From Hyphomicrobiales bacterium (GTDB lineage: Bacteria > Pseudomonadota > Alphaproteobacteria > Rhizobiales > NORP267): a stretch of 64,000 nucleotides of DNA. The stretch lies in NCBI GenBank assembly GCA_021775875.1, contig JAJFHA010000018.1:1-64000 (forward strand), in the 5' to 3' direction. The translations under genes were made by a program, and so were the position numbers. Below are positions 1-34,192 of the stretch, in pieces; the stretch's first letter is position 1; every line of letters starts with the position of its first letter. The notes below the pieces were generated by a model. The model had not been told where the DNA came from and searched no databases. It saw nothing but the letters and a program-made list of their open reading frames with translations.

Positions 1-143
1 TGCTGGCACTGAGCACGCCAGCACTGGCCGGGACCGGAACACAGTCGATGACCCCCGTCACCGACCGTGATCTGGTCACATCACAAACGGGCGCCCCGAT
101 TGATGGATGCCCCCCAATTGCCCGGTTCACAAACAATCTCTAA
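1..143 (+). CDS. 3' end of a small, probably secreted protein
   Basis: An open frame enters from the left edge and stops at TAA 141-143. The visible residues begin LALSTPALAGTGTQS, which reads like the end of a Sec signal peptide with an A-x-A-type cleavage site, so most of the mature protein (about 37 residues) may be visible. It ends IARFTNNL. No family was recognised and the start lies outside the window. The rho-independent terminator just after the stop supports this being the last gene of a plus-strand unit. The secretion call is inferred from only a few residues. Confidence 0.5.
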   Translation, partial: LALSTPALAGTGTQSMTPVTDRDLVTSQTGAPIDGCPPIARFTNNL

Positions 144-158
144 CCGGACAAAGCTTCA

Positions 159-191
159 GGATCCGGGACATTAGTCCCGGATCCTTTTTTT
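159..191 (+). terminator. Rho-independent terminator
   Basis: A perfect 11-bp stem (GGATCCGGGAC / GTCCCGGATCC) with the loop ATTA is followed at once by seven T residues. It lies 15 bases past the stop of the plus-strand gene that enters from the left edge. No T-run exists on the other side, so it acts on the plus strand only. Confidence 0.93.
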
Positions 192-197
192 GTGGGG

Positions 198-1175
198 TTA
201 GTCCCCGGCACCAAGAACCGTTTCCTCGTCTTCGATGAACCAGGCGGGTGTCCGGTACCCTGCAATTTTGCGTTTTTTCATCAACGTTTTGTAGATGGAT
301 TTTCTGTCCGGGTCGCGATTGACCTTGTGCTGATAGGGACAAACATCGACGCAGATATGGCAATATTCATTCCGGAACCGCGACGCTTCGTAGCATGTGG
401 CGGTATCGACCTGCCAGCGTTTAACGCCTTCGGTAACGATATAATCCTCACTTGAGCGGATAGCACCGGGTGGGCAATTTTGTTCGCAAATCCGGCATTT
501 TTCGCACGTATCCTGCACGCCGAAAATATTTGCTTTGCCTGCGATGATAGGCGCGTCAGTGACCACAAATCCTGGCCGGAAACCGGCTCCAAAATCAGGG
601 TGGATCAAGCTGCCATGCTTGCCCAATTCCCCCATGCCACATGCAAGTAGCGCCGGGATCGCCATTATTTCTCCGGTGCCATTATGATCGGCGATGGCGG
701 AAAATCCAAGCGACCGGATATAGGCGGCAAGCTCCGTCGAGATACGGGCGCATTCCACGTAAACTTCAAACGCTTCCCGCTCGACCGCAAGTGCTCCATC
801 CAATACCTTGCCATAGTCTTCCGCGACGACGATTGAGATAATGTAACGGGGTTTAAATTCTGATCCCACATTGATCATGGTCGAGGTTAGTTCAGCAAAG
901 CCAATATCGCTGCCGCCCAATTCCAACCCTTTGGCCTTGATGAGTGCCGAGATTTGAGCCGGGTCGCTGCCTTCAGGTTGTGTGTCATTCACGCGCCCAT
1001 CGCGGAGTGGCGTATAGGCGGTCCATCGATGCATCACAGCATTGACATCAAATTTGCGGGTCTTGGGGCTGTCTTTCCGAAACAATGGAATTTCCGATAG
1101 ACCTTTCTGTATCATAATCTCGTTAGCCAACGGGTCATCCGGTCCCCCGCGCCTGAATTCTGATGTGCCTTTCAT
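198..1175 (-). CDS. Reductive-dehalogenase-like iron-sulfur protein (cytoplasmic)
   Basis: This 325-residue protein belongs to the reductive dehalogenase/epoxyqueuosine reductase superfamily. Residues 165-215 carry the family's GELGKHGSLIHPDFG segment, which in characterised members lies in the corrinoid-binding part. Two 4Fe-4S ligand sets follow: C224, C227, C230, C234 and C261, C272, C275, C279, each ending in CP. No Tat signal or membrane segment is present, unlike respiratory RdhA proteins, so it should be cytoplasmic. The ATG is chosen over an upstream TTG because AGGGAG lies just before it. It follows the LuxR/GAF gene on the same strand. A catabolic (non-respiratory) dehalogenation or other B12-dependent reduction is possible, but the substrate is unknown. 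QueG was considered, but the regulator and transporter context does not suggest tRNA modification. Confidence 0.7.
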   Translation of the reverse strand: MKGTSEFRRGGPDDPLANEIMIQKGLSEIPLFRKDSPKTRKFDVNAVMHRWTAYTPLRDGRVNDTQPEGSDPAQISALIKAKGLELGGSDIGFAELTSTMINVGSEFKPRYIISIVVAEDYGKVLDGALAVEREAFEVYVECARISTELAAYIRSLGFSAIADHNGTGEIMAIPALLACGMGELGKHGSLIHPDFGAGFRPGFVVTDAPIIAGKANIFGVQDTCEKCRICEQNCPPGAIRSSEDYIVTEGVKRWQVDTATCYEASRFRNEYCHICVDVCPYQHKVNRDPDRKSIYKTLMKKRKIAGYRTPAWFIEDEETVLGAGD

Positions 1176-1230
1176 CCCAAAACTCCCTATCAACCACCAA
1201 ACCGGTAAAATTGTCTTTCCAGACAAAAGA

Positions 1231-2187
1231 TCATTTTAGTGTTGGCTGTCTGGCTTCTGAACGCAATTCACTCACCATACGCGCGTTCTCGATTGCGATG
1301 ACACTTTGATCGGCGAATATTTGCGCCAACTGCATGGTTTTTTTGTCGAACGGCCGCAGTTGCTGCCGGTAGATTGTAAAGGCACCGATCAGGCGTTTTC
1401 CTGCGAGCATCGGGATCGCCGCAAATGACCGCGCACCCCCCAAAGTTGCGGTCGCATATCTCAAGGGGTCATCTGTTCTGTAGATCTCTTCGGCACATAC
1501 ATCTATGATGTTTACAATGTCGTGGCTGGCTGCCATGCGGCCAATAGCGGTTTGCGGGCTGGGTTTATAATCACCCTGCTCAACCCACCATTGGTGAAAG
1601 ACCGGTGGAATGCCTTTGGTATATGATGCGCTGAAACCGCTTTTTCCCTTATATTCCAGCAACAGTCCGAATTCGGCGTCACACAATTCGAGCGCATATC
1701 CGAGCACCGACTCGATGACTTCGGCGATCCGGCCTTCAGACCCACTGATTATCCGGAGCACCTCGCTGAGTGTACGCTCGCGGCTGATTGCTTCCTCCAG
1801 GTTCAGTGCAAGTTCCGAGATTATTGCCGTCTGGTCAGTTTGGCTCTTTCGCTGCGGCTTGCCCCCTTCAAGTATCTTATGCAATTCGAGCTTTGAGGAC
1901 ACTTCCAATTTTCGGTAAATCGTAGCCAGATGCGTTCGCACGGTGGAGGGCGCGATAAAGAGCTGTTCGGCAATACGGTGATAATTGTCACCTCGTGCAT
2001 AGGCGTGGGCGATCTCAAGCTCTCGTGGACTTAGGCGATCTTCGCTCAACGACGGCTCTCCCCAGAGCAGTGTTTCAAATACTCCGATTTTGCGGCCTGT
2101 CTGGTCGGGTGGCAATACCGCAAATGCTGTAGACCAAATACTACAAATATCATGGCTAAATACAGCATGTGCCCGATATCCGTGCAA
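1231..2187 (-). CDS. LuxR-type regulator with C-terminal GAF domain
   Basis: A LuxR/GerE helix-turn-helix lies at about residues 52-107 (LSPRELEIAHAYARG ... APSTVRTHLATIYRKL). It is followed by a GAF domain at about 140-305 that could bind a small ligand. This order is reversed from most LuxR proteins, where the DNA-binding domain is C-terminal. The first 50 residues match nothing recognised. The only usable start appears to be TTG with a poor ribosome binding site, so the N-terminus is uncertain. The gene lies 55 bases before the dehalogenase-like start on the same strand and is divergent from the MFS carrier, so it probably controls both. The ligand is unknown. Confidence 0.8.
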   Translation of the reverse strand: MHGYRAHAVFSHDICSIWSTAFAVLPPDQTGRKIGVFETLLWGEPSLSEDRLSPRELEIAHAYARGDNYHRIAEQLFIAPSTVRTHLATIYRKLEVSSKLELHKILEGGKPQRKSQTDQTAIISELALNLEEAISRERTLSEVLRIISGSEGRIAEVIESVLGYALELCDAEFGLLLEYKGKSGFSASYTKGIPPVFHQWWVEQGDYKPSPQTAIGRMAASHDIVNIIDVCAEEIYRTDDPLRYATATLGGARSFAAIPMLAGKRLIGAFTIYRQQLRPFDKKTMQLAQIFADQSVIAIENARMVSELRSEARQPTLK

Positions 2188-2256
2188 CTCTGTGTGTACT
2201 AGTCTCTTTATGAATCATTGTTGCAATCAGCGTCTTCACCAACGGAAAATTCAAAA

Positions 2257-3420
2257 ATGAAAACCACGCGCTGGCACATACTTTTCCTGCTGTTTATCGC
2301 CCGTATAGGCCTTGGATTTCAATTTCAAACCATGGGCTCCGTCGCCAACGAACTGGTTGGGGAATTAGGCTTGAACTACACCCAGATAGGAAGCCTGATC
2401 GGTTTCTTCATGGTGCCGGGAATGTTCCTTGCATTGCCAGCGGGGTTTGCCGGTCGTTTCATGTCGGATCGGTTTATTGTGGGGGCCGGCCTTCTGGCAT
2501 TGGCGGCTGGCGGAGGTTTGGCTGCGGTTGCAGACAGTTTCAATTTTTTCGCAATCGGACGTATGATCTGCGGTGTTGGCTTCGTGGTCTCGACAATGTT
2601 TTTGACCAAGATCGTGGCGGACTGGTTCTCAGGCAAAGAATTGGCAACGGCGATGAGCGTGTTGGTGATGTCCTGGCCGTTGGGTATTGCAATGGGGCAG
2701 CTTGGCCATGGCTGGTTGGCGGTCAATTACGATTGGCGTTGGGCCTTTATCGTGGCATCGCTCTATTGTCTGGTGGGTGCCTTGTTGGTCATGTTTTTTT
2801 ACCGCGAGGCTCCGGAGACCAATAAAGCGAAACTCAGTTTCAAGTTCACCCTAAATCGGAATGAGGTCGTGCTCACCATTATTGCCGGTTTGGTCTGGTC
2901 ATTCTTCAATGCCGGATATGTGGTTTATCTAAGTTTTGCGCCCCGCGTTTTGGTGAGCAATGGGTATGAAATTGTCGCCGCGTTAGGAATTGTAAGCCTT
3001 GCGAGCTGGGTCATGATTTTCTCGGGCACAATTTGCGGCCAAATTGCAGATCGCAGCGGCCGACACGATGCGGTTCTCTATATTTGTATTGCAGCAGCGA
3101 TGCTAGCTTTGATGATGTTGTTTGTGGCACCCCTCGCGATCCCGTCAAGTCTGTTATTTGGCTTGATGGGGGTGGCACCCGCCGGAATTATCATGGCCCT
3201 GACTGCCAGCGCGATGAAGCCGGAAAACCGGGCGCTCGGCATGGGGCTTTTCTTTACTTGCTATTTTGTAGTGCAGGCGCCAGCGCCCGCGATCGCCGGA
3301 TGGCTCTATGATTGGACGGCAGATGCCTTTTGGCCAATCCTGTTCTCAATCTCGTTGTTTTTTGCTACCGCTTTGACAAATGTAGCTTACAGGATTGTGC
3401 AGAAACGCATGCCCATATGA
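2257..3420 (+). CDS. MFS transporter
   Basis: This 387-residue protein has about twelve hydrophobic segments and begins with a membrane helix right after MKTTRW. The loop between helices 2 and 3 reads AGRFMSDRF, close to the major facilitator signature G-x-x-x-D-R. Aromatic and small residues alternate as in anion/organic acid carriers of the NarK/OFA-like branch, but no substrate can be named. ATG at 2257 is preferred over an upstream TTG because the membrane helix begins shortly after it; the ribosome binding site is weak. It is divergent from the LuxR/GAF gene and followed by the Rieske-FMN enzyme on the same strand, which suggests it imports or exports that pathway's substrate. Confidence 0.85.
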   Translation: MKTTRWHILFLLFIARIGLGFQFQTMGSVANELVGELGLNYTQIGSLIGFFMVPGMFLALPAGFAGRFMSDRFIVGAGLLALAAGGGLAAVADSFNFFAIGRMICGVGFVVSTMFLTKIVADWFSGKELATAMSVLVMSWPLGIAMGQLGHGWLAVNYDWRWAFIVASLYCLVGALLVMFFYREAPETNKAKLSFKFTLNRNEVVLTIIAGLVWSFFNAGYVVYLSFAPRVLVSNGYEIVAALGIVSLASWVMIFSGTICGQIADRSGRHDAVLYICIAAAMLALMMLFVAPLAIPSSLLFGLMGVAPAGIIMALTASAMKPENRALGMGLFFTCYFVVQAPAPAIAGWLYDWTADAFWPILFSISLFFATALTNVAYRIVQKRMPI

Positions 3421-3538
3421 AACTTCGCTCTTATGTGCGGTTGCTTTGCTTTGACTAAATCCAATAAAGGCCCCAAGTTCTCCAAAAGCAAATCTGCGCA
3501 AACAGGCAGTTTTGAACCTGGCAAGGGTGGGCAACGAA

Positions 3539-5149
3539 ATGAACAAAATTTCAATAGTAAAATTTAACGACTTGAAAGACCGCAAACCAGAATATGCGCT
3601 TGTAGGCGAAGTTGATCTGGTGGTCGTGCGGATTGATGATGAAGCATCGGTATTTTATGGCCGCTGCCTCCATCGTGGAGCATTAATGGCGGACGGTTTT
3701 GTGAGCGGCGACAATCTGATTTGCGGCCTCCACTATTGGGATTACCGGCTGGATACGGGCGTATCTGAATATGCCAACAAGGAAGTGTTGCCCAAATTCG
3801 TATCCTGGATCGAAGATGGCCAGGTATTGGTCGACGAGGACGAGATTAATTCATGGGCCGAAGCCAACCCGCAGCCATTCAACCGCGATAAGTATCTTGG
3901 ACTTTACGCCGATACCAGCCACGGCACCGAGGAAGAACCATATAACGGAATGATCCAGCGCTACGCGCGTGACGGGTTATCGAAAACCGGACATCATGGC
4001 ATTGTCGAATCCATGGGCGTGCCGCGGACCCAGTTGCCTGATTGGGATGATATCCAGATTTTGACGGCCCAATTGCATAAACCTCCAATGCTTGATGATG
4101 ATCCGGTTGGAACCGAAATTGTTATCGGGCCAAACGCACAACAGCCTTTGAAACTGGATATTCCACTATTCGTATCTGACATGAGTTTCGGTGCCCTTTC
4201 GGCTTCAGCAAAGGTGGCATTGGCGCGCGGCGCGGAGCTTGCGGGCACCGGCATTTGCTCCGGTGAAGGCGGCATGTTGCCGGAAGAGCAGGAAGCCAAT
4301 TCGCGTTATTTTTATGAGCTGGCATCAGCACGGTTTGGCTTTGACTGGGACAAATTATCGAAGGTCCAGGCGTTTCATTTCAAGGGCGGGCAAGGCGCTA
4401 AAACCGGCACAGGAGGGCATCTGCCCGGTTCCAAGGTCAAAGGTAAAATTGCTGAAGTACGCGGTTTGAATGAAGGCGAGCCTGCGGTATCCCCGCCACG
4501 ATTTCCTGAATGGACGGAGGTATCCCAAATCAAGGATTTCGCCGACGAAGTGCGAGACCGCACAGGCGGCATTCCAATAGGATACAAGCTCTCCGCCCAG
4601 CATATTGAAAAAGATATCGACGCCGCGCTGGAAATTGGCGTCGATTATATTATCCTTGATGGTCGGGGCGGCGGCACTGGTGCCGCGCCGATAATTTTCC
4701 GGGATAATATTTCTGTCCCTACCATTCCGGCATTGGCCCGCGCCCGGCGGCATTTGGACAAAAACGGCCCCGGCAATATCACGCTGGTAATCACTGGAGG
4801 TTTGCGCAAGCCAGCCGATTTCATCAAGGCCCTGGCGCTTGGGGCAGATGCTGTGGCGCTCTCCAATTCGGCCATGCAGGCCATCGGCTGCGTTGCCATG
4901 CGCGCCTGCCACACCAACAATTGCCCGGTCGGGATAGCCACCCAGAAGCCCCATCTGGTCAACCGGCTGGTTGTTGAAAAATCAGCCAATCAATTGAAGA
5001 ATTTTTTCGAAGCTTCGGTAGAGCTGATGCAAGTGATGGCCCGCGCCTGCGGCCATGACCATCTCTCACAATTCAATATTGAAGACCTGACCACCTGGAA
5101 AAAAGAAATGGCGGAATTGTCCGGCGTTGGCTTTGGCGGTGTTGGTTAG
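3539..5149 (+). CDS. Rieske domain fused to glutamate-synthase-type FMN domain
   Basis: Residues 1-100 form a Rieske-type [2Fe-2S] domain with ligands C43, H45, C62 and H65 (CLHRG ... CGLHYW). Residues about 150-530 are the FMN-binding glutamate synthase domain, with glycine-rich stretches (HFKGGQGAKTGTGGHLPG, DGRGGGTGAAP) and a C-x5-C-x4-C [3Fe-4S] motif, CVAMRACHTNNC. No glutaminase domain or NAD(P)H-binding domain is present, so ordinary GOGAT activity is doubtful. The three centres suggest an electron-transfer flavoenzyme. ATG is preceded by a G-rich site (AAGGGTGGG). It lies 118 bases after the MFS gene and converges with soeC, 14 bases away. The reaction is unknown; a link to the dehalogenase-like protein is inference from proximity. 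Confidence 0.85.
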   Translation: MNKISIVKFNDLKDRKPEYALVGEVDLVVVRIDDEASVFYGRCLHRGALMADGFVSGDNLICGLHYWDYRLDTGVSEYANKEVLPKFVSWIEDGQVLVDEDEINSWAEANPQPFNRDKYLGLYADTSHGTEEEPYNGMIQRYARDGLSKTGHHGIVESMGVPRTQLPDWDDIQILTAQLHKPPMLDDDPVGTEIVIGPNAQQPLKLDIPLFVSDMSFGALSASAKVALARGAELAGTGICSGEGGMLPEEQEANSRYFYELASARFGFDWDKLSKVQAFHFKGGQGAKTGTGGHLPGSKVKGKIAEVRGLNEGEPAVSPPRFPEWTEVSQIKDFADEVRDRTGGIPIGYKLSAQHIEKDIDAALEIGVDYIILDGRGGGTGAAPIIFRDNISVPTIPALARARRHLDKNGPGNITLVITGGLRKPADFIKALALGADAVALSNSAMQAIGCVAMRACHTNNCPVGIATQKPHLVNRLVVEKSANQLKNFFEASVELMQVMARACGHDHLSQFNIEDLTTWKKEMAELSGVGFGGVG

Positions 5150-5163
5150 GGGAAAAGCAGCGA

Positions 5164-6102
5164 TCAAGCCCGGTCGGTGCCGTAATAGAGCATCGCTACA
5201 TGTTCGGCCTCGGCAAAGAACAGCCAGCGCTCGACGATGATCCCAATTGCCGCCGAGATCAGTGCTAAGGTATAAAGCGGCTGCGCCCAACTCATAGTCA
5301 TGGCGAGCGCAACAAACAGCATCGGCAAGATGAACAGGCAAGCAAGCGTAACACGGCGCAACTTGGTAGCGTGTTTGCGCCCGACCCGGAAACCCATTTC
5401 CCGCATAACAAAATTCGGCATGGTGTGAGGCGGCGTAAGCGGTCGAACCTTGGCTTCGGTCTCTATTCCAAGCGCCATCGCAGTCGTGTAATTGCCTTTA
5501 TCGCGGTCAATTCGATACCAATAGCTGCGCTTTATCATGAGAGCTACAAACAGCGATCCGACACCCGATATAGCCACCCAAAGAGGTACTTGATCAAAAA
5601 TTGCCAGGATCAGCAGAAATAGTAATGTGCCCGTTGCGGCCGCGGCGGCAAGATAGAAAACAGGGACCAGGGCCAAATTCCAATGGCGGATTGTGCGCAA
5701 GGACGCGTAAATCATGCCGGTGCAATAAACTGTCACCGACGCCCCTAATGCAGCAAGAATGGCAAGCAAGGGAAGGGATTTTGTATCCCAATCAAACAAC
5801 CAGATCAGACCCATGAGGCCAGCCGGGATATAGGTCAGGATTGCCGCAACTCCTTCTCGCGACAGCCAGGAACTACGCCATTGGGAAAACGCCCTGTGCG
5901 CCCGTTCCGGGTGCCCCAGATGCAGCATCGACGATAACAGCCCGACTGTGACCAGCGCCAGCGCTACAACCAGCATGGTCAATCCGCTCCAGCGATCAAG
6001 GGGCAACTGTCCGCTCAATAATCCGAGCGATATCCAGAATAACAATCCGTATCCGGCCCCGGATGCGGTTGTGAAAAGGATGACGGAATAGGCTGGGTGC
6101 AT
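5164..6102 (-). CDS. soeC: DmsC/NrfD-type membrane anchor subunit, probable SoeC
   Basis: This 312-residue integral membrane protein has about eight hydrophobic segments and is of the DMSO reductase anchor (DmsC) family. In SoeABC it ties the catalytic and iron-sulfur subunits to the cytoplasmic face of the membrane and passes electrons to quinone. It is the last gene of an A–B–C run, 12 bases after the B subunit. The soe assignment rests on the whole set: no Tat signal on the A subunit, one four-cluster B subunit, and this anchor. A different DMSO-reductase-family substrate cannot be excluded. Confidence 0.75.
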   Translation of the reverse strand: MHPAYSVILFTTASGAGYGLLFWISLGLLSGQLPLDRWSGLTMLVVALALVTVGLLSSMLHLGHPERAHRAFSQWRSSWLSREGVAAILTYIPAGLMGLIWLFDWDTKSLPLLAILAALGASVTVYCTGMIYASLRTIRHWNLALVPVFYLAAAAATGTLLFLLILAIFDQVPLWVAISGVGSLFVALMIKRSYWYRIDRDKGNYTTAMALGIETEAKVRPLTPPHTMPNFVMREMGFRVGRKHATKLRRVTLACLFILPMLFVALAMTMSWAQPLYTLALISAAIGIIVERWLFFAEAEHVAMLYYGTDRA

Positions 6103-6114
6103 AACTGGTTTTTC

Positions 6115-6864
6115 TTATCTTGAAAGGACGCGGTCGGCCCAGGCAAATAGTTTTTCGGTAGCGGAATTATCGGCGGCTGGGATAGTTTCGCTGGCTTGGG
6201 TTCCAGCTTCGATATTTGAATTCCGGCGCGGGCGCGGCGGTAGATATTTATTGACCGGCTTGTAACCAAAATCTTCGAGCAGGCCATAGCCATCGCGGCT
6301 GGCAACGCTTTTTGAAACGTCACTGTCGGCGTCGCCTAAATCGCCAAAAGCGCGCGCACCGGTCGGGCAGGCCCGGACGCAAGCCGGGATCCGCTCACTC
6401 TCGGCCAGTGTATCGTTGTAAATCCTGTCGACGCAAAGGGAGCATTTTTTCATGACACCATCGTCATGGTCATATTCCCGCGCCCCATACGGGCAAGCCC
6501 ATGAACACAGTTTGCAGCCAATGCAGGTATCAGGATTGACCAGAACGATGCCGTCTTCTTGGCGTTTATAGCTCGCGCCTGTTGGGCAAACGGTGACGCA
6601 ATCTGGTTCTTCGCAATGCATACAGGCGCGGGGAAAATGTAATGTCCGGCTGTCTTCACCTTCGCCAATCTCATAGGAATGAACCCGGTTCAGCCAGGCC
6701 CCGGACGGGTCCGCGCCATATGGGTCATGGTCGGACAAGGGGGCGGAATAGCCGCCGGTATTCCATTCCTTGCAACTGGTGGCGCAGGCCTGACAACCAA
6801 CGCAGATATCCAGATCGATAACGAGACCAAGCTTTTTGGATGTTGGAGCGGGGAGACTGGTCAT
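6115..6864 (-). CDS. soeB: Four-cluster ferredoxin subunit of molybdenum oxidoreductase, probable SoeB
   Basis: This 249-residue protein carries four cysteine groups typical of DmsB/SoeB electron-transfer subunits: CVGCQACATSC, CMHCEEPDCVTVC, CIGCKLCSWAC and CSLCVDRI ... CVRAC. It should carry electrons from the molybdenum subunit to the membrane anchor. Its ATG overlaps the end of the A subunit by four bases (ATGA), which indicates translational coupling. The C-terminal 60 residues are variable. No export signal is seen, consistent with a cytoplasm-facing complex. Confidence 0.8.
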   Translation of the reverse strand: MTSLPAPTSKKLGLVIDLDICVGCQACATSCKEWNTGGYSAPLSDHDPYGADPSGAWLNRVHSYEIGEGEDSRTLHFPRACMHCEEPDCVTVCPTGASYKRQEDGIVLVNPDTCIGCKLCSWACPYGAREYDHDDGVMKKCSLCVDRIYNDTLAESERIPACVRACPTGARAFGDLGDADSDVSKSVASRDGYGLLEDFGYKPVNKYLPPRPRRNSNIEAGTQASETIPAADNSATEKLFAWADRVLSR

Positions 6865-9710
6865 TTGCTGCGCCTTTTGAAATCTGCCCCATAAGCAAGT
6901 TTGGTTAGTGATGTCGGCTGGCTTGAATTTCCGACTGGCTCAAATTTTGGCGAGGTTTCGCCAGACCCGTCGGCTTTTTCAATCGAGACCCGCAAATCAA
7001 ACCACGCCGCCTGGCCGGTAATTGGATCAGAGTTTGAATAGCGATAGTCACCGCCTTCCGGCAATAATTCAGAGATTAGATGGTTTAGCAAAAATCCCTG
7101 ATTGGATTCAGGGGCATCATCATCCAGTCCCCAGGTTCCGCGCCGTTTGCCAATCGCGTTCCATGTCCAGACCGTGTCTGGATTGACCCCGTCCATCAAT
7201 TGCACCTGGCATTTGACCCGTCCCTGATTGGACGAAAGCCAGACCCAATCGTCGTCTTTCACATTGATGCTATCGCCGACAGAATGGTGGATGTAGAGCC
7301 GGTTCGCAGCGGTGATTTGCCGGAGCCATGCATTCTGACTGCCCCACGAATGATACATATGCATCGGGCGCTGGGTGATGGCGTGAAGTGGATATTTTGC
7401 GGTCGAAACCATGTCTTCTTCAAAGGGCCGATACCAGAAGGGCAGGGGGTCGAAATATTTCGCGATCCTGTCCCGGTGCAATTCCGGCGGAGTTATCTCG
7501 CCATGGCCTTCCGCAGCTAGTCGAAAGACTTGCATCGGTTCGCTGTAGAGCTGAAATATTGTCGGCGTTGCAGTCGGGCGAAAGCCAACTTCGACCGCCC
7601 AGTTCAGGTAATCCAGATTGGCATGCTTGAAATAGGCCTGTTCCGGTTTCAGATGCTGGACGAAAAAAGACCCGTTTTCGATATAGCGATCCAATTGGTC
7701 CGGGTTAACCTCGCCGGTTCCAAATTTTGAACCATCCTTGCCGCGCCACCCGGCCAGCGGCCCAACGCCAGGGGCGCGTTCGTGATTGACGATATAATCG
7801 GGATAGCCGCCAGGATATTTCGGCGTGCCGTCATCGTTGGTGAAGCCCGGTAATTTGAGCCGCGCACCAAGATCGATCAGCACTTCCTGAAATGGCCGCA
7901 CGTCCCGATCAGGCTCAACAACCGGATGGCGGATTGCATCAGCAGCGGCATCCGCTTCCGAAATCGGGCGATCAAGCAGCGAGATGCAATCCCATCGCTC
8001 CAGATAGGTCGTATCTGGCAGGATCAGGTCGGCATACGGCACCATCTCGGAATAAAAGGCATCGGAATAGATAATTTTTGGAATTGTATAGGTGCCGTCT
8101 TCGTTTTTCGCTGTCAGATCGCTGATGGTGTCGGCCACATTCATGGTCGAATTCCATGCCATGTTGGCCATGTACATGAACAAGACATCGATCCCGTAGG
8201 GGTCGCGGGCGGCGGCGTTATGTATCACCATATGCATCAGGCCGTGGGCGGCCATCGGCGCTTCCCAGGTGAATGCTTTGTCGATGCGGGCAGCATTTTC
8301 GCCGTCAAACAAAAGATGTTCCGGCCCGAGCGGAAACCCTAAATGGGGTCCACCAAGGGGTTCGTCCGCGTGAACGTCTTTCGGCGCGCCGTGGGGCCGC
8401 AATCCGGGCGGAGCCGGTTTTGGATAAGGTGGTTTGTAACGAAACCCGCCCGGGCAATCGATCGAACCCAGCAGAATCTGGAGGATGTGGATCAACCGGC
8501 AGGTTTGAAAACCGTTTGAATGGGCCGAGATGCCGCGCATCGCGTGCATCGATACAGGCCGACCGATCATTTTGTCGTGCTTGCGCCCCGCCCAATCGGT
8601 CCAGGGCTGGTCCAGTATGATTTCCTGCTCAAAGGCAACTTCGGCCAATTCAGCCGCGATCCGGCGGATATCTTCAGCCGGGACTCCAATATCTTCCGCG
8701 ACCGCATCCGGGGAATATTCAGGCTCCAGATACCGCTCCGCCATCAGCTCGAATACCGGACGCGCGGTGCGGCCATCGGCCAGGGTACGGGAGCCAACAA
8801 GCGCCGGCGCGATATCAACATTCATGCCGCTGGCAAATGTAGCGCTTGTCTGGTCGTAGACCAGCGGGTCGCCGTTTTCGTCGCGGGCAAACAATCCGTG
8901 GTCAGCAGCGCCGGGGTCCTGAATGACCAACCAGGGCGCATTTGTGTAACGCACCAGATAGTCGAGATCGATCTTCTGCGCCTTGAACAATTCATGAATC
9001 AAGGCTCCGACAAACAGACCATCGGTGCCGGGCCGTACACCAACCCACTCATCAGCAACAGCCGAATAGCCGGTGCGAATTGGGTTGACTGAGACAAATT
9101 TGGCACCGCGAGATTTGATCTTGCCGATCCCGATCTTGATCGGGTTCGATGCGTGGTCTTCGGCAACGCCGAACATCAGTAGATATTTTGTGAGGTCCCA
9201 GTCGGGATCGCCAAATTCCCAGAACGAGCCGCCGAATGTATAAAGCCCTGCAGCGGCCATATTGACCGAACAAAAGCCTCCATGGGCGGCAAAATTAGGG
9301 GTCCCGAACTGGATCGCCCAATAGCCGGTTAAGGACTGGCTTTGGTCACGTCCAGTAAAAAACGCCAGCCGTTTGGGGTCTTTGGCACGAATGGGCTCCA
9401 GCCAACTTGTAGCGAGTTCCATCGCTTCGTCCCAGGAAATTTCCTCAAATTCGCCGGAACCACGTGGCCCAACCCGTTTCATCGGAGCTTGCAGGCGGGC
9501 CGGCGAATAATGCTGCATGATCCCGGCGCTACCCTTGCCACATAGAACGCCTTTGTTGACCGGGTGATCAGGATTGCCTTCGATGTAGCGAACCTTGCCG
9601 TCTCTCAGATGAACCCTGATGCCGCACCGACAGGCGCACATATAACAGGTCGTTGTGGCAACATGGTCGCCCACCGGATTATCGAGATCAAGTTTTGGTT
9701 CAAAATTCAT
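6861..9710 (-). CDS. soeA: Molybdopterin oxidoreductase catalytic subunit, probable sulfite dehydrogenase SoeA
   Basis: This 949-residue member of the DMSO reductase family should use bis-MGD. C22, C25, C29 and C57 near the N-terminus (CYMCACRC ... GVLCGKG) would bind a 4Fe-4S cluster. C147 in HGGFCSVN is a plausible molybdenum ligand, by inference. There is no twin-arginine leader, so the enzyme faces the cytoplasm, as in SoeABC sulfite-oxidising complexes of purple sulfur bacteria and roseobacters. The length and the B/C partners also fit. Oxidation of cytoplasmic sulfite from sulfonate or other organosulfur breakdown is the likely role. No sulfonate genes are nearby, so the substrate remains inferred. 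A candidate promoter with a perfect TATAAT lies upstream. Confidence 0.78.
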   Translation of the reverse strand: MNFEPKLDLDNPVGDHVATTTCYMCACRCGIRVHLRDGKVRYIEGNPDHPVNKGVLCGKGSAGIMQHYSPARLQAPMKRVGPRGSGEFEEISWDEAMELATSWLEPIRAKDPKRLAFFTGRDQSQSLTGYWAIQFGTPNFAAHGGFCSVNMAAAGLYTFGGSFWEFGDPDWDLTKYLLMFGVAEDHASNPIKIGIGKIKSRGAKFVSVNPIRTGYSAVADEWVGVRPGTDGLFVGALIHELFKAQKIDLDYLVRYTNAPWLVIQDPGAADHGLFARDENGDPLVYDQTSATFASGMNVDIAPALVGSRTLADGRTARPVFELMAERYLEPEYSPDAVAEDIGVPAEDIRRIAAELAEVAFEQEIILDQPWTDWAGRKHDKMIGRPVSMHAMRGISAHSNGFQTCRLIHILQILLGSIDCPGGFRYKPPYPKPAPPGLRPHGAPKDVHADEPLGGPHLGFPLGPEHLLFDGENAARIDKAFTWEAPMAAHGLMHMVIHNAAARDPYGIDVLFMYMANMAWNSTMNVADTISDLTAKNEDGTYTIPKIIYSDAFYSEMVPYADLILPDTTYLERWDCISLLDRPISEADAAADAIRHPVVEPDRDVRPFQEVLIDLGARLKLPGFTNDDGTPKYPGGYPDYIVNHERAPGVGPLAGWRGKDGSKFGTGEVNPDQLDRYIENGSFFVQHLKPEQAYFKHANLDYLNWAVEVGFRPTATPTIFQLYSEPMQVFRLAAEGHGEITPPELHRDRIAKYFDPLPFWYRPFEEDMVSTAKYPLHAITQRPMHMYHSWGSQNAWLRQITAANRLYIHHSVGDSINVKDDDWVWLSSNQGRVKCQVQLMDGVNPDTVWTWNAIGKRRGTWGLDDDAPESNQGFLLNHLISELLPEGGDYRYSNSDPITGQAAWFDLRVSIEKADGSGETSPKFEPVGNSSQPTSLTKLAYGADFKRRSK

Positions 9711-31938: not shown

Positions 31939-32263
31939 GGCAATTTGGCGCGTCCCGGTCAGGCCAGAGGTTCATCAAGACGTATTGCATAAACCTGGTG
32001 AGCTTGGAAACACATTCACGGAGCACGCCGTCTCTCGGTTTACTTTACGTCAGCATTTGTGGGGGTTTTTAACGCCTTTTCAATAGATCAATGTGACCTT
32101 GTATTTCAGATATGAATGTTCGCGATTTTTTTGTGTCTTCAAATACAGCTGACATAGAGTCAGGGAATACAAAATTGAATTACTGCGACGAAAATTTCGG
32201 ATTTATGATAGCGCCCTGTTGCGCCCGTTTTAGCATGTGGAATGTCCGTGCACGGAGCGAGCA
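31939..32263. other. Intergenic region without a visible gene
   Basis: This 325-base gap separates the divergent glycosyltransferase and histidine kinase genes. It is AT-rich toward the kinase side and should hold both promoters. No clear promoter pair, repeat, RNA hairpin or small gene was recognised. Confidence 0.4.
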
Positions 32264-34192
32264 ATGATGCCTGAGATATGTAAAGATGGACTGCATGATT
32301 TGCTCCAGGAGCAGATCGATTTGTCGATCGAGCAGTCTGAATCCGGTGAAATTGATTATCGCAATCTATTGTCGATGGTCAGCAACTCGTATCAGAAAGC
32401 TGAGCAGGATCGTAACCGGGCAATGCAGAATGTCGGGTTGATGTCAGACGAAATGCGCAATTTGCATTTCGATGTAGAAAAAGAGACCAATGCCCGGATC
32501 CAGGCTGAAGCCAGGCATTTCGAAGCCATCAATGAACTCGATATGGGTTTCGCTTATTATGACCCGGATGACCGGCTGCTGGCCTTCAACAGCCAATATC
32601 AGGATATCCTGTTCCCAGGCACGCCGGACCGAATTGCCCTGGGGCAGACATTTGAGCAGATATTGAGAGTTTATCAGGATTTGCAGCGTGACGCTGAGGG
32701 CGGAGATCCTGACCTGGATGAAACACTCAAAGAGCAACTGCACCGTCATCAAAACCCAGATATACCGTCCGCAAATCAGGCGCACGACGGGCGTTGGTAT
32801 TTGATTAGTGAAAAGAAAACCCGCGAAGGGGGCATCGTCGCCATCCTCACGGATATTACCGAAATCAAGCAACGCGAATTTGCAATGCAGCGAAACGAGC
32901 AATACGCCGATCTGTTGAATGACGTGATTATGGAATTGACGCACAGTAAAGCGGTTTTGACAGGTGACCTCGACACTTCGCTGCGCGAAATATCGGAAGT
33001 CGCTGCTAATGTGCTGAAAGTCGAACGGGCCAGTATTTGGTTGTTTGATGTTGGTCATGCCGTGATTCAATGCAAAAATATGTATGAAAAGACTCCCGGC
33101 ACACACAATATCGGTCCTGAATTGCTTGTGACAAAATTCCCAATTTGTTTTGCTGAGATCAACAACAACAAGACGATCGCCGTAAATGACGTCGAAAAAG
33201 ATGAACGGGTCAAAGAGCTGCTTGAAGGTGTTTTGCATCCGCACGACATTCATTCGCTGATTTATGCGCCTATTAAAGGCCCGGGATTCGCCGAAGGTAT
33301 AATTGCCATCTGCCATGTGGGAGGATGCCGGGAATGGAACTCGGCAGAGATTAAATTTGTTTCCGGTTTGGCGGATATTGCCGGAATGGCTCTTAAGGCC
33401 AACGACCGCCGGCGTTCGCGAACGCGTATGCTTCAGGCGATAGAACGTGCGGAACTTGCCAATCGTTCAAAATCAGAATTTCTTGCCAATATGAGCCATG
33501 AATTGCGGACGCCGCTGAATTCCATTCTTGGCTTTGCGGAATTGTTGCAACTCGAACAGGTTGAAGCTCTAACTCAGGAGCAAACTGCCGAATATGCGGG
33601 TGATATTTTTAACAGCGGTAGACATTTACTGGATTTGATCAACGATATTCTGGACATTTCAAAAATCGAAGCGGGCAACTTTGAATTGCGAGAAGAGTGG
33701 GTTGAGATAGAGAACATCTTCACAGTCTGTGTTCGTTTGATCCAAGAACGGGCGAACGATCAGGGTCTGGAATTGGAGGTAGATGTTCCGTTCGATCTTC
33801 CTACTCTTTGGGCTGACGAGAGAGCGCTTAAACAGATCCTTCTTAATCTACTCTCGAACGCTACTAAATTTACCCCCTCAGGTGGCAAAGTGACAATCAG
33901 TGCGGGGATTGATCCCAGCGGGAATTTCCGGCTGGCAGTGACCGACACCGGCATTGGAATTGCGCAGGACGATCTACAGAAAACGTTCCTGCCATTTATC
34001 CAGTTAGACAACAATTCTACGCGCAAACATGCAGGCACAGGACTTGGGTTACACTTGGTAAAGTCACTAGTTGAAATGCATGGTGGGAAACTTGATATCG
34101 AAAGCCAGCCTGGGGTCGGTACGTCCGTCGTCGCACAAATTCCGGGGCAGCGAATTCAGATGGAAAGCAATAAAATTCGTGATGTTGGGTAA
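32264..34192 (+). CDS. Soluble PAS–GAF sensor histidine kinase
   Basis: This 642-residue kinase has no membrane segment. Domains in order: coiled-coil start (to about 85), PAS (about 90-210; [15 protein letters not shown]), GAF (about 225-390), HisKA with H412 in [12 protein letters not shown], and HATPase (about 520-635) with [19 protein letters not shown] and GTGLGL. GGAG precedes the tandem ATG at 32264. No cognate response regulator is adjacent; the nearest is the sigma-54 activator at 35374-36798, reading the other way. It may sense a cytosolic ligand or redox state. Confidence 0.9.

Follow-up and report, generated by a model that had tools for sequence, protein, structure and literature searches.

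A minimal cytosolic reductive dehalogenase-like protein beside a regulator-transporter pair and a Rieske flavoenzyme in a Hyphomicrobiales bacterium: probably three separate units

Introduction

PceA of Sulfurospirillum multivorans is an exported, Tat-dependent respiratory enzyme. Roles have been assigned to Tyr246, Asn272 and Arg305 in this reductive dehalogenase (RdhA) and to Tyr426 and Lys488 in NpRdhA of Nitratireductor pacificus (PMC4646009, PMC7565698). In NpRdhA, Ser422 and Arg552 hold the phenol hydroxyl together with Lys488 (PMC7565698). Truncated catabolic RdhAs such as NpRdhA need an external reductant, and a ferredoxin pair that is not its physiological one was enough to drive NpRdhA in vitro (PMC10463259). 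QueG shares the arrangement of redox cofactors and the active-site tyrosine with RdhA (PMC4646009), and the Ros_A3X954 debrominase is stated to be without Tat (PMC13101508). Here we analyse a relative of these enzymes encoded at one end of a 64,000-nucleotide stretch of DNA (the window; contig JAJFHA010000018.1 of a Hyphomicrobiales bacterium), together with the three genes beside it, which code for a LuxR/GAF regulator, an MFS transporter and a flavoenzyme joining a Rieske domain to a glutamate synthase (GltS) domain.

A first-pass annotation had taken the four genes for one system of sensing, import and reduction, in which the Rieske-FMN protein could supply electrons to the RdhA-like protein. 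We prefer, with a probability of about 0.68, a reading in which three separate units lie side by side: an orphan RdhA-like reductase, a LuxR-MFS pair and an unrelated Rieske-GltS flavoenzyme. We read the RdhA-like protein as a corrinoid reductase of the cytosol without dedicated partners, probably a dehalogenase that draws its electrons from general ferredoxin. The genes are the following:

198..1175, minus strand: cytosolic RdhA-superfamily protein of minimal size, 325 aa if begun at the ATG at 1175 (TIGR02486, phmmer, residues, model)
1231..2187, minus strand: regulator with a LuxR-type helix-turn-helix (HTH) and a GAF domain (GerE E 1e-13, N-terminal HTH; GAF E 3e-11, C-terminal)
2218..3420, plus strand: MFS transporter (MFS_1 E 9e-42), divergent from the LuxR/GAF gene
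3512..5149, plus strand: Rieske [2Fe-2S] and glutamate-synthase FMN/[3Fe-4S] flavoprotein (Rieske E 1e-10, Glu_synthase E 9e-89)

Results

Family, active site and fold of the RdhA-like protein

All four genes were confirmed at these coordinates and orientations by the list of open reading frames (ORFs) and by Pfam/TIGRFAM profile searches. This bears out the layout first described, with the RdhA-like gene behind the LuxR/GAF gene and divergent from the MFS and Rieske-FMN genes. The LuxR/GAF gene lies upstream of the RdhA-like gene on the same strand, its stop 55 bp from the RdhA ATG, and the MFS and Rieske-FMN genes follow each other on one strand with a gap of 91 bp. The RdhA-like frame reaches a TTG at 1226 (ORF 198-1226, minus strand). 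The ATG at 1175 is the likely start because in the orthologs at L017, L019, L020 and L022 that methionine is the first start codon (G labels denote genomes, L labels loci and C labels contigs of the window genome, G000); a GGGAG ribosome site is seen by eye upstream of it. The MFS protein probably starts near the ATG at 2257 (by eye).

At the level of sequence, the similarity of the protein to reductive dehalogenases is far above chance. It matches TIGR02486 with 96.2 bits (E 3e-27), under the cut-off of 160.35, and the QueG model TIGR00276 with 33.7 bits, for a cut-off of 200; neither PF13486 nor PF08331 (QueG_DUF1730) matches at E<=0.001. Against solved structures, phmmer gives E 1e-29 for NpRdhA, 2e-19 for 8q4h, which is the RdhA of a menaquinol complex, 2e-17 for PceA (4uqu) and 0.27 for QueG. 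In the alignment, Y139, N165 and R200 (numbered from the ATG) pair with PceA Tyr246, Asn272 and Arg305, and Y139 and R200 also fall on NpRdhA Tyr426 and Lys488. The cysteines C224, C227, C230 and C234, followed by C261, C272, C275 and C279, make up two 4Fe-4S motifs (CxxCxxCxxxCP and C..CxxCxxxCP). Twenty positions are invariant in 35 aligned sequences; Y139, R200 and all cluster cysteines but C279 are among them, and C279 is kept in at least 90% of the 35 rows. The predicted core fold, the two [4Fe-4S] cysteine motifs and the tyrosine with an Arg/Lys partner are those of RdhA; the curated family score is not reached (TIGR02486 cut-off; PF13486). L064, a protein from a Sulfurospirillum plasmid that is annotated as a reductive dehalogenase, is also without a PF13486 match at E<=0.01, and the model therefore misses annotated members.

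Read by eye from the ATG at 1175, and with the starts of the orthologs taken into account, the sequence shows no Tat leader. No membrane-anchor gene was seen beside the RdhA-like gene, from which the contig end is 197 bases away; as the window opens with the first base of contig C10, this left side is visible no further than that base.

According to an AlphaFold2 model (pLDDT 83.8, pTM 0.86), the protein is predicted to have a cobalamin-binding nitroreductase-like core fold. The model superimposes on NpRdhA with Z 27.8 (288 residues, rmsd 2.9), on PceA (4ur3) with Z 27.0 and on QueG with Z 16.5, and Foldseek ranks the three in the same order. In a tree of 75 rows, with long branches flagged, the window protein falls in a 14-row clade (support 100/100) on a separate deep branch of length 1.37, apart from nine QueG rows (100/100). 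The other groups are a second short lineage, which gathers all but one (L166, on its own) of 22 short rows, and a set of 30 PceA-, NpRdhA- or BhbA-like rows. These two groups have supports of 82/84 and 82/92, and the tree does not settle the branching order among them and the window clade. The tree and alignment label PceA stands for L064, of Sulfurospirillum sp. SP, and the label BhbA for L062, a plasmid protein of Comamonas sp. 7D-2; both records say only reductive dehalogenase. Profile, residues, tree and fold agree in supporting the earlier description of a cytoplasmic RdhA-superfamily protein with two 4Fe-4S sites and, by eye, no Tat leader.

A QueG paralog or second epoxyqueuosine reductase would share the cofactor arrangement and active-site tyrosine common to QueG and RdhA (PMC4646009), and TIGR00276 does give its 33.7 bits. 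These are set against a cut-off of 200 bits and the lack of QueG_DUF1730, which the single QueG of the genome, on another contig, carries with 82.9 bits (PF08331) next to weak HEAT matches. That QueG keeps the tyrosine, has Asp where PceA and the RdhA-like protein have Asn, and has no Arg at the place of Arg305. QueG membership was rejected, since the TIGR00276 score is below its cut-off, DUF1730 is missing, and tree and fold go with RdhA; we regard it as hardly credible. The comparison with RdhA and QueG structures that the first-pass annotation had proposed favours RdhA by Z score, and the grouping with QueG that it had considered did not occur in the tree, where the nine QueGs lie on the far side (100/100).

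A reductase of another kind is more probable than a QueG. The clade could be a cobalamin-dependent enzyme that cleaves C-O or C-S bonds, or an epoxide as in QueG, and its score below the TIGR02486 cut-off, the missing PF13486 match and the deep branch of length 1.37 are consistent with this. In the alignment, NpRdhA Ser422 and Arg552 are replaced by Ala135 and Glu263, so that the substrate pocket differs from that of NpRdhA. Moreover, the clade gene at L017 lies directly behind a pyrogallol-hydroxytransferase-like molybdenum enzyme. On the other hand, the Tyr-Asn-Arg set of PceA is kept and the fold is closest to RdhA, and we consider this reading rather unlikely, while allowing it some weight. 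It is tempting to go further and regard the 14-row clade as a third, undescribed class III cobalamin lineage beside RdhA and QueG, that is, a one-domain alphaproteobacterial reductase of about 320 aa in the cytosol, whose natural substrate need not be halogenated and would be imported by the adjacent LuxR/GAF-controlled MFS. We think this unlikely.

Distribution of the clade

Matches to the window protein, its own genome included, occur in 2 of 6 genomes of the family (E<=1e-40) and in 2 of 397 genomes of the order and 9 of 385 of the class (E<=1e-42). A scan of named genomes gave eight loci, four being G001, G403, G588 and G680 again. The clade is present in 13 distinct other genomes, at 68-77% identity in eight and at 41-52% in five. 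Of 72,556 plasmid records, 9 matched the protein; in every case the identity was under 30% and the match spanned no more than 80% of the query. A TIGR02486 census at E<=1e-15 found 29 of 240 alphaproteobacterial genomes, 14 above the cut-off and 15 only below it.

The window genome has five RdhA-superfamily genes besides QueG, the window gene included. The further loci are:

C15:44600, C21:66287, C2:276450, C15:205585 and C27:21133: four RdhA-superfamily genes and one QueG

Two of the four further RdhA-superfamily genes are short (332 and 328 aa), one codes for a 719-aa NpRdhA-like protein and one, C15:205585, for a PF13486-positive protein of 427 aa (26.3 bits) with a CAICMRVCP motif. Members of the second short lineage are mostly 315-385 aa long. 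The searches made found no characterised member of either short lineage, and a literature search, mostly open-access, found no paper on a short RdhA lineage or on the Rieske-GltS cluster.

At L017 (6106-10987), the molybdenum enzyme, its Fe-S subunit and the clade ortholog are on one strand, an arrangement that hints at aromatic metabolism there. Peroxiredoxin-like proteins (by eye) are encoded directly upstream of RdhA-like genes of two lineages (L002:2484-3029, L028:5818-6354).

Linkage of the four genes in other genomes

Neighbourhoods of the clade were compared at 16 loci from 13 distinct other genomes, three of which are represented by two loci, with homologs called at E<=1e-8. No LuxR/GAF, MFS or Rieske-GltS homolog was found at any of the 16 in the flanks covered, which reach at least 8 kb on both sides at 8 of the 13 distinct loci and have one short side at L016, L018, L019, L023 and L028. 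The 18 Rieske-GltS loci compared, 13 of them from Alphaproteobacteria, 3 from haloarchaea and 2 from Vibrio, are all without RdhA, LuxR/GAF or a window-type MFS, and neither RdhA, LuxR nor MFS is found at the Rieske-GltS locus of G005. This genome, of the same genus, has the Rieske-GltS protein at 87% and no member of the RdhA clade at E<=1e-40. G001, of the same family, shows the reverse: its RdhA is 75% identical, and the only match to the Rieske-GltS query at E<=1e-20 lies inside a 1,630-aa glutamate-synthase frame.

The full-length Rieske-GltS protein occurs in nine other genomes, a count that omits G739, where the frame is cut by the contig end, and none of the nine has the RdhA clade. 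In turn, all 13 other genomes with the clade are without the full-length Rieske-FMN form. The nearest exception is a CDGSH-type relative in G680 (69% from residue 138), on a contig other than that of its RdhA; G403, G588 and G673 have relatives of the FMN part at 42-43%. As chance overlap would also be near zero in such samples, this points to no association rather than to avoidance.

Clustering of neighbours at 35 loci (L021 and L029 omitted as same-genus copies of L020 and L030, L024-L026 as duplicates) gave no specific conserved partner beside the window clade or the second short lineage. The widest recurring families, counted excluding RdhA genes and frames antisense to them (coordinates checked for three cluster representatives), were a TRAP DctM-like permease (by eye; 6 loci) and EamA permeases (4 loci, including the window), neither of them specific.

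The 3512-5149 protein has the Rieske ligands (by eye) and, aligned with GltS, the three cysteines of the GltS [3Fe-4S] cluster. No glutaminase domain is among its Pfam matches at E<=0.001, which sets it outside glutamate synthase. Pfam and TIGRFAM profiles found no NAD(P)H or ferredoxin-reductase domain in it, so it carries no sign of being an electron donor to RdhA. Several of its homologs elsewhere adjoin, in varying subsets, a Rieske-TPP enzyme, a membrane protein of ferric-reductase/Rieske type, an unknown protein (about 255 aa) and a Na/H exchanger. The Rieske-TPP enzyme (about 660 aa) is 57-73% identical to that of G005 and occurs on two haloarchaeal plasmids as well. These recurring neighbours may make up a multi-Rieske redox module, so far undescribed, that is shared across domains of life; none of them was found among the window frames of at least 100 aa. 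The loci that have them are:

L096 (G005), L068 (G646), L069 (G682), L072 (G491), L079 and L080 (haloarchaeal plasmids)

In the homologs of L075, L076 and L077 (68-69% in the FMN part), an N-terminal CDGSH-like motif replaces the Rieske domain by eye; it is seen in L075 and L076, in part in L077 and possibly in L078.

A four-part system in which the Rieske-FMN protein passes electrons to the RdhA-like protein would agree with the proximity of the genes, the MFS and Rieske-FMN genes being 91 bp apart on the same strand, and with the external reductant that truncated catabolic RdhAs need (PMC10463259). The RdhA clade and the full-length Rieske-GltS protein are, however, together in no other genome examined, the Rieske-GltS homologs have other partners, and no NAD(P)H or ferredoxin-reductase domain was found in the 3512-5149 protein. 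Moreover, Rieske centres are usually at higher potential than RdhA clusters and the Co(II)/Co(I) couple. The four-gene system was rejected on linkage (0 of 13 RdhA-clade genomes, 0 of 18 Rieske-GltS loci) and seems to us very improbable. The four families were not found together in any other genome examined, which goes against the single sense-import-reduce system of the first-pass annotation. The result it had named as contrary to that system, RdhA neighbourhoods lacking the Rieske-FMN gene, is what all 13 other clade genomes present. The proposed electron supply is likewise not supported, given the missing reductase domain and the other partners of the homologs, and we judge the Rieske-GltS protein to be an independent neighbour and no part of an RdhA system.

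Regulator and transporter

The LuxR/GAF query was run against 240 genomes of the class, including that of the window, which served as positive control. At E<=1e-8, 9 of the 239 others matched, eight of them in the GAF part only (frames of 439-3,044 aa). An earlier search of 28 chosen genomes gave none at E<=1e-15, with no positive control. G591 is the only other genome with a homolog covering both HTH and GAF (63%, residues 44-307). There the gene is divergent from an MFS gene whose product is 36% identical to the window MFS (L154:5750-8869). A LigB-type ring-opening dioxygenase adjoins this pair. The 17-kb stretch read around it, which extends 6.7 kb to one side of the pair and 8.1 kb to the other, showed no RdhA, and the short RdhA of G591 is about 340 kb away. 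The window and G591 intergenic regions share no convincing operator motif, the longest common word being 9 bases in opposite orientation. Homologs of the window MFS at 31-38% identity occur in 11 other genomes, three found only at E<=1e-40 in one search and eight at E<=1e-50 in another. One of these, in G779, is divergent from an RdhA gene; two RdhA-like frames lie near that of G004, and in the remaining nine genomes no RdhA was found in the stretches read.

With the Rieske-FMN protein left outside, the other three genes could be a module for a (halo)aromatic compound, with LuxR/GAF as its sensor, the MFS as its importer and the RdhA-like protein as its reductase. The 55 bp between the LuxR and RdhA-like genes on one strand, the recurrence of the divergent LuxR/GAF-MFS pair in G591 near the dioxygenase and the G779 arrangement all speak for it. 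Yet the G591 pair has no RdhA within the stretch read, an RdhA is adjacent in only 1 of the 11 genomes with MFS homologs and is of another lineage, and MFS or LuxR occurs at none of the loci of the 13 RdhA-clade genomes. We consider such a module distinctly unlikely. The link between regulator and carrier proposed by the first-pass annotation finds some support: the two are paired again, in divergent orientation, in G591, with no RdhA in the stretch read. At a modest probability, G591 and G779 keep a regulator-transporter(-RdhA) link alive.

Other features of the window

158..185, no strand assigned (reported on the plus strand): terminator-like hairpin, 12 pairs then a T run, downstream of the RdhA-like gene (consensus match only)
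5164-9710, minus strand: DmsC-type anchor, iron-sulfur subunit and PhsA-like molybdopterin enzyme, an operon-like run (Pfam/TIGRFAM matches)
32237-34192: histidine kinase with PAS and GAF domains, which gives the window a second protein with GAF

The hairpin has the longest stem of the four terminator-like matches found in a scan of 1-5300, for which shuffles gave a mean of 7.5. The run at 5164-9710, which we take to resemble a SoeABC-type sulfite dehydrogenase, is convergent with the Rieske-GltS gene, with 14 bases between them, and hemN lies beyond it. No cobalamin riboswitch or other Rfam family reached gathering score in the window. A promoter scan gave 8 matches, with 4.6 (sd 1.8) in shuffles, and was not used.

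Discussion

As regards cofactor content, dehalogenation, the electron donor and an operon with LuxR, we infer the following scheme. Cobalamin would be bound base-off in the nitroreductase-like core of the RdhA-like protein, and the two [4Fe-4S] clusters would pass single electrons to the cobalt. Tyr139, assisted by Arg200, would give the proton. The bond cleaved would most likely be carbon-halogen, in an imported or internal compound. Since no conserved partner gene was found, the electrons may come from a general cellular ferredoxin or flavodoxin, and the activity of NpRdhA with a non-physiological ferredoxin pair suggests that a dedicated partner may not be needed. The LuxR/GAF and divergent MFS genes would be a regulator-transporter pair, and the RdhA-like gene, behind the regulator, may be co-transcribed with it in this genome. 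Rieske-GltS would stand by itself here, in contrast to family members elsewhere that are accompanied by partners of another kind.

Several points weigh against reading the locus as three separate units with a dehalogenase among them. As Ser422 and Arg552 of NpRdhA are not kept, the substrate may not be a halophenol, or may not be halogenated. At five of the 13 clade loci one flank is short, and a neighbour may have escaped notice there. In G779, which also holds the window RdhA clade (L022), the MFS homolog is divergent, across 240 bp, from a 500-aa PF13486-positive RdhA (L099:6173-9097; 92.9 bits) that has a very long branch in the tree and belongs to another lineage than the window clade; this adjacency could mean that a link between import and reduction is commoner than sampled. 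In G004, two weak RdhA-like frames lie 4.5-5.4 kb from the MFS homolog (L100:12882-14947); they are adjacent, partly overlapping and RdhA/QueG-like with 49 and 61 bits, and a scan of one of them matched neither PF13486 nor QueG_DUF1730. In G588 and G680, a member of the RdhA clade, an MFS homolog at 38% and a GltS-FMN relative that is more distant or of CDGSH type occur in the same genome, on separate contigs. Finally, the four genes may be a lineage-specific system in this one genome despite their absence elsewhere.

If the short lineages dehalogenate, they add to the halogen turnover outside organohalide respiration; if they do not, the chemistry of class III cobalamin enzymes extends beyond dehalogenation and queuosine synthesis. 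What keeps its interest is a minimal RdhA lineage missed by the curated models, and finding that the four-gene unit is not conserved spares a misdirected electron-transfer experiment.

Comparison with known systems

NpRdhA (PDB 4ras, 6zxu) resembles the window protein in its cobalamin-binding core, two [4Fe-4S] motifs, catalytic tyrosine and lack of a fused reductase. It has Lys488 as basic partner where the window protein has Arg, and the two are 21-24% identical. NpRdhA is about 700 aa long with a vestigial duplicated domain (PMC10463259), whereas the window protein is a single domain of 325 aa. This single core without a vestigial duplicate also sets it outside the catabolic NpRdhA/BhbA type, the BhbA-type frames compared being 1,070-1,215 aa and the complete-looking NpRdhA-type ones 695-742 aa. 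All three PceA residues, Tyr246, Asn272 and Arg305 (PDB 4uqu), have equivalents in the window protein, which differs from the Tat-exported PceA in having, by eye, no Tat leader.

The Ros_A3X954 debrominase (Roseobacter MED193) and T7RdhA (TMED77) share with the window protein a marine origin and two 4Fe-4S motifs. Ros_A3X954 has PF13486 (PMC13101508), for which the window protein gives no match. Going by the published descriptions of both, the paralog at C15:205585, with its PF13486 match and the same CAICMRVCP motif, resembles the Ros_A3X954/T7RdhA type. QueG (PDB 5d6s) shares the class III cobalamin fold, the two clusters and the active-site tyrosine; unlike QueG, the window protein has no DUF1730 and has the RdhA-type Asn and Arg. 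Lastly, the 3512-5149 protein shares the FMN barrel region and three cysteines with the glutamate synthase FMN/[3Fe-4S] domain (PDB 7mfm) and, unlike glutamate synthase, has an N-terminal Rieske domain and no matched glutaminase.

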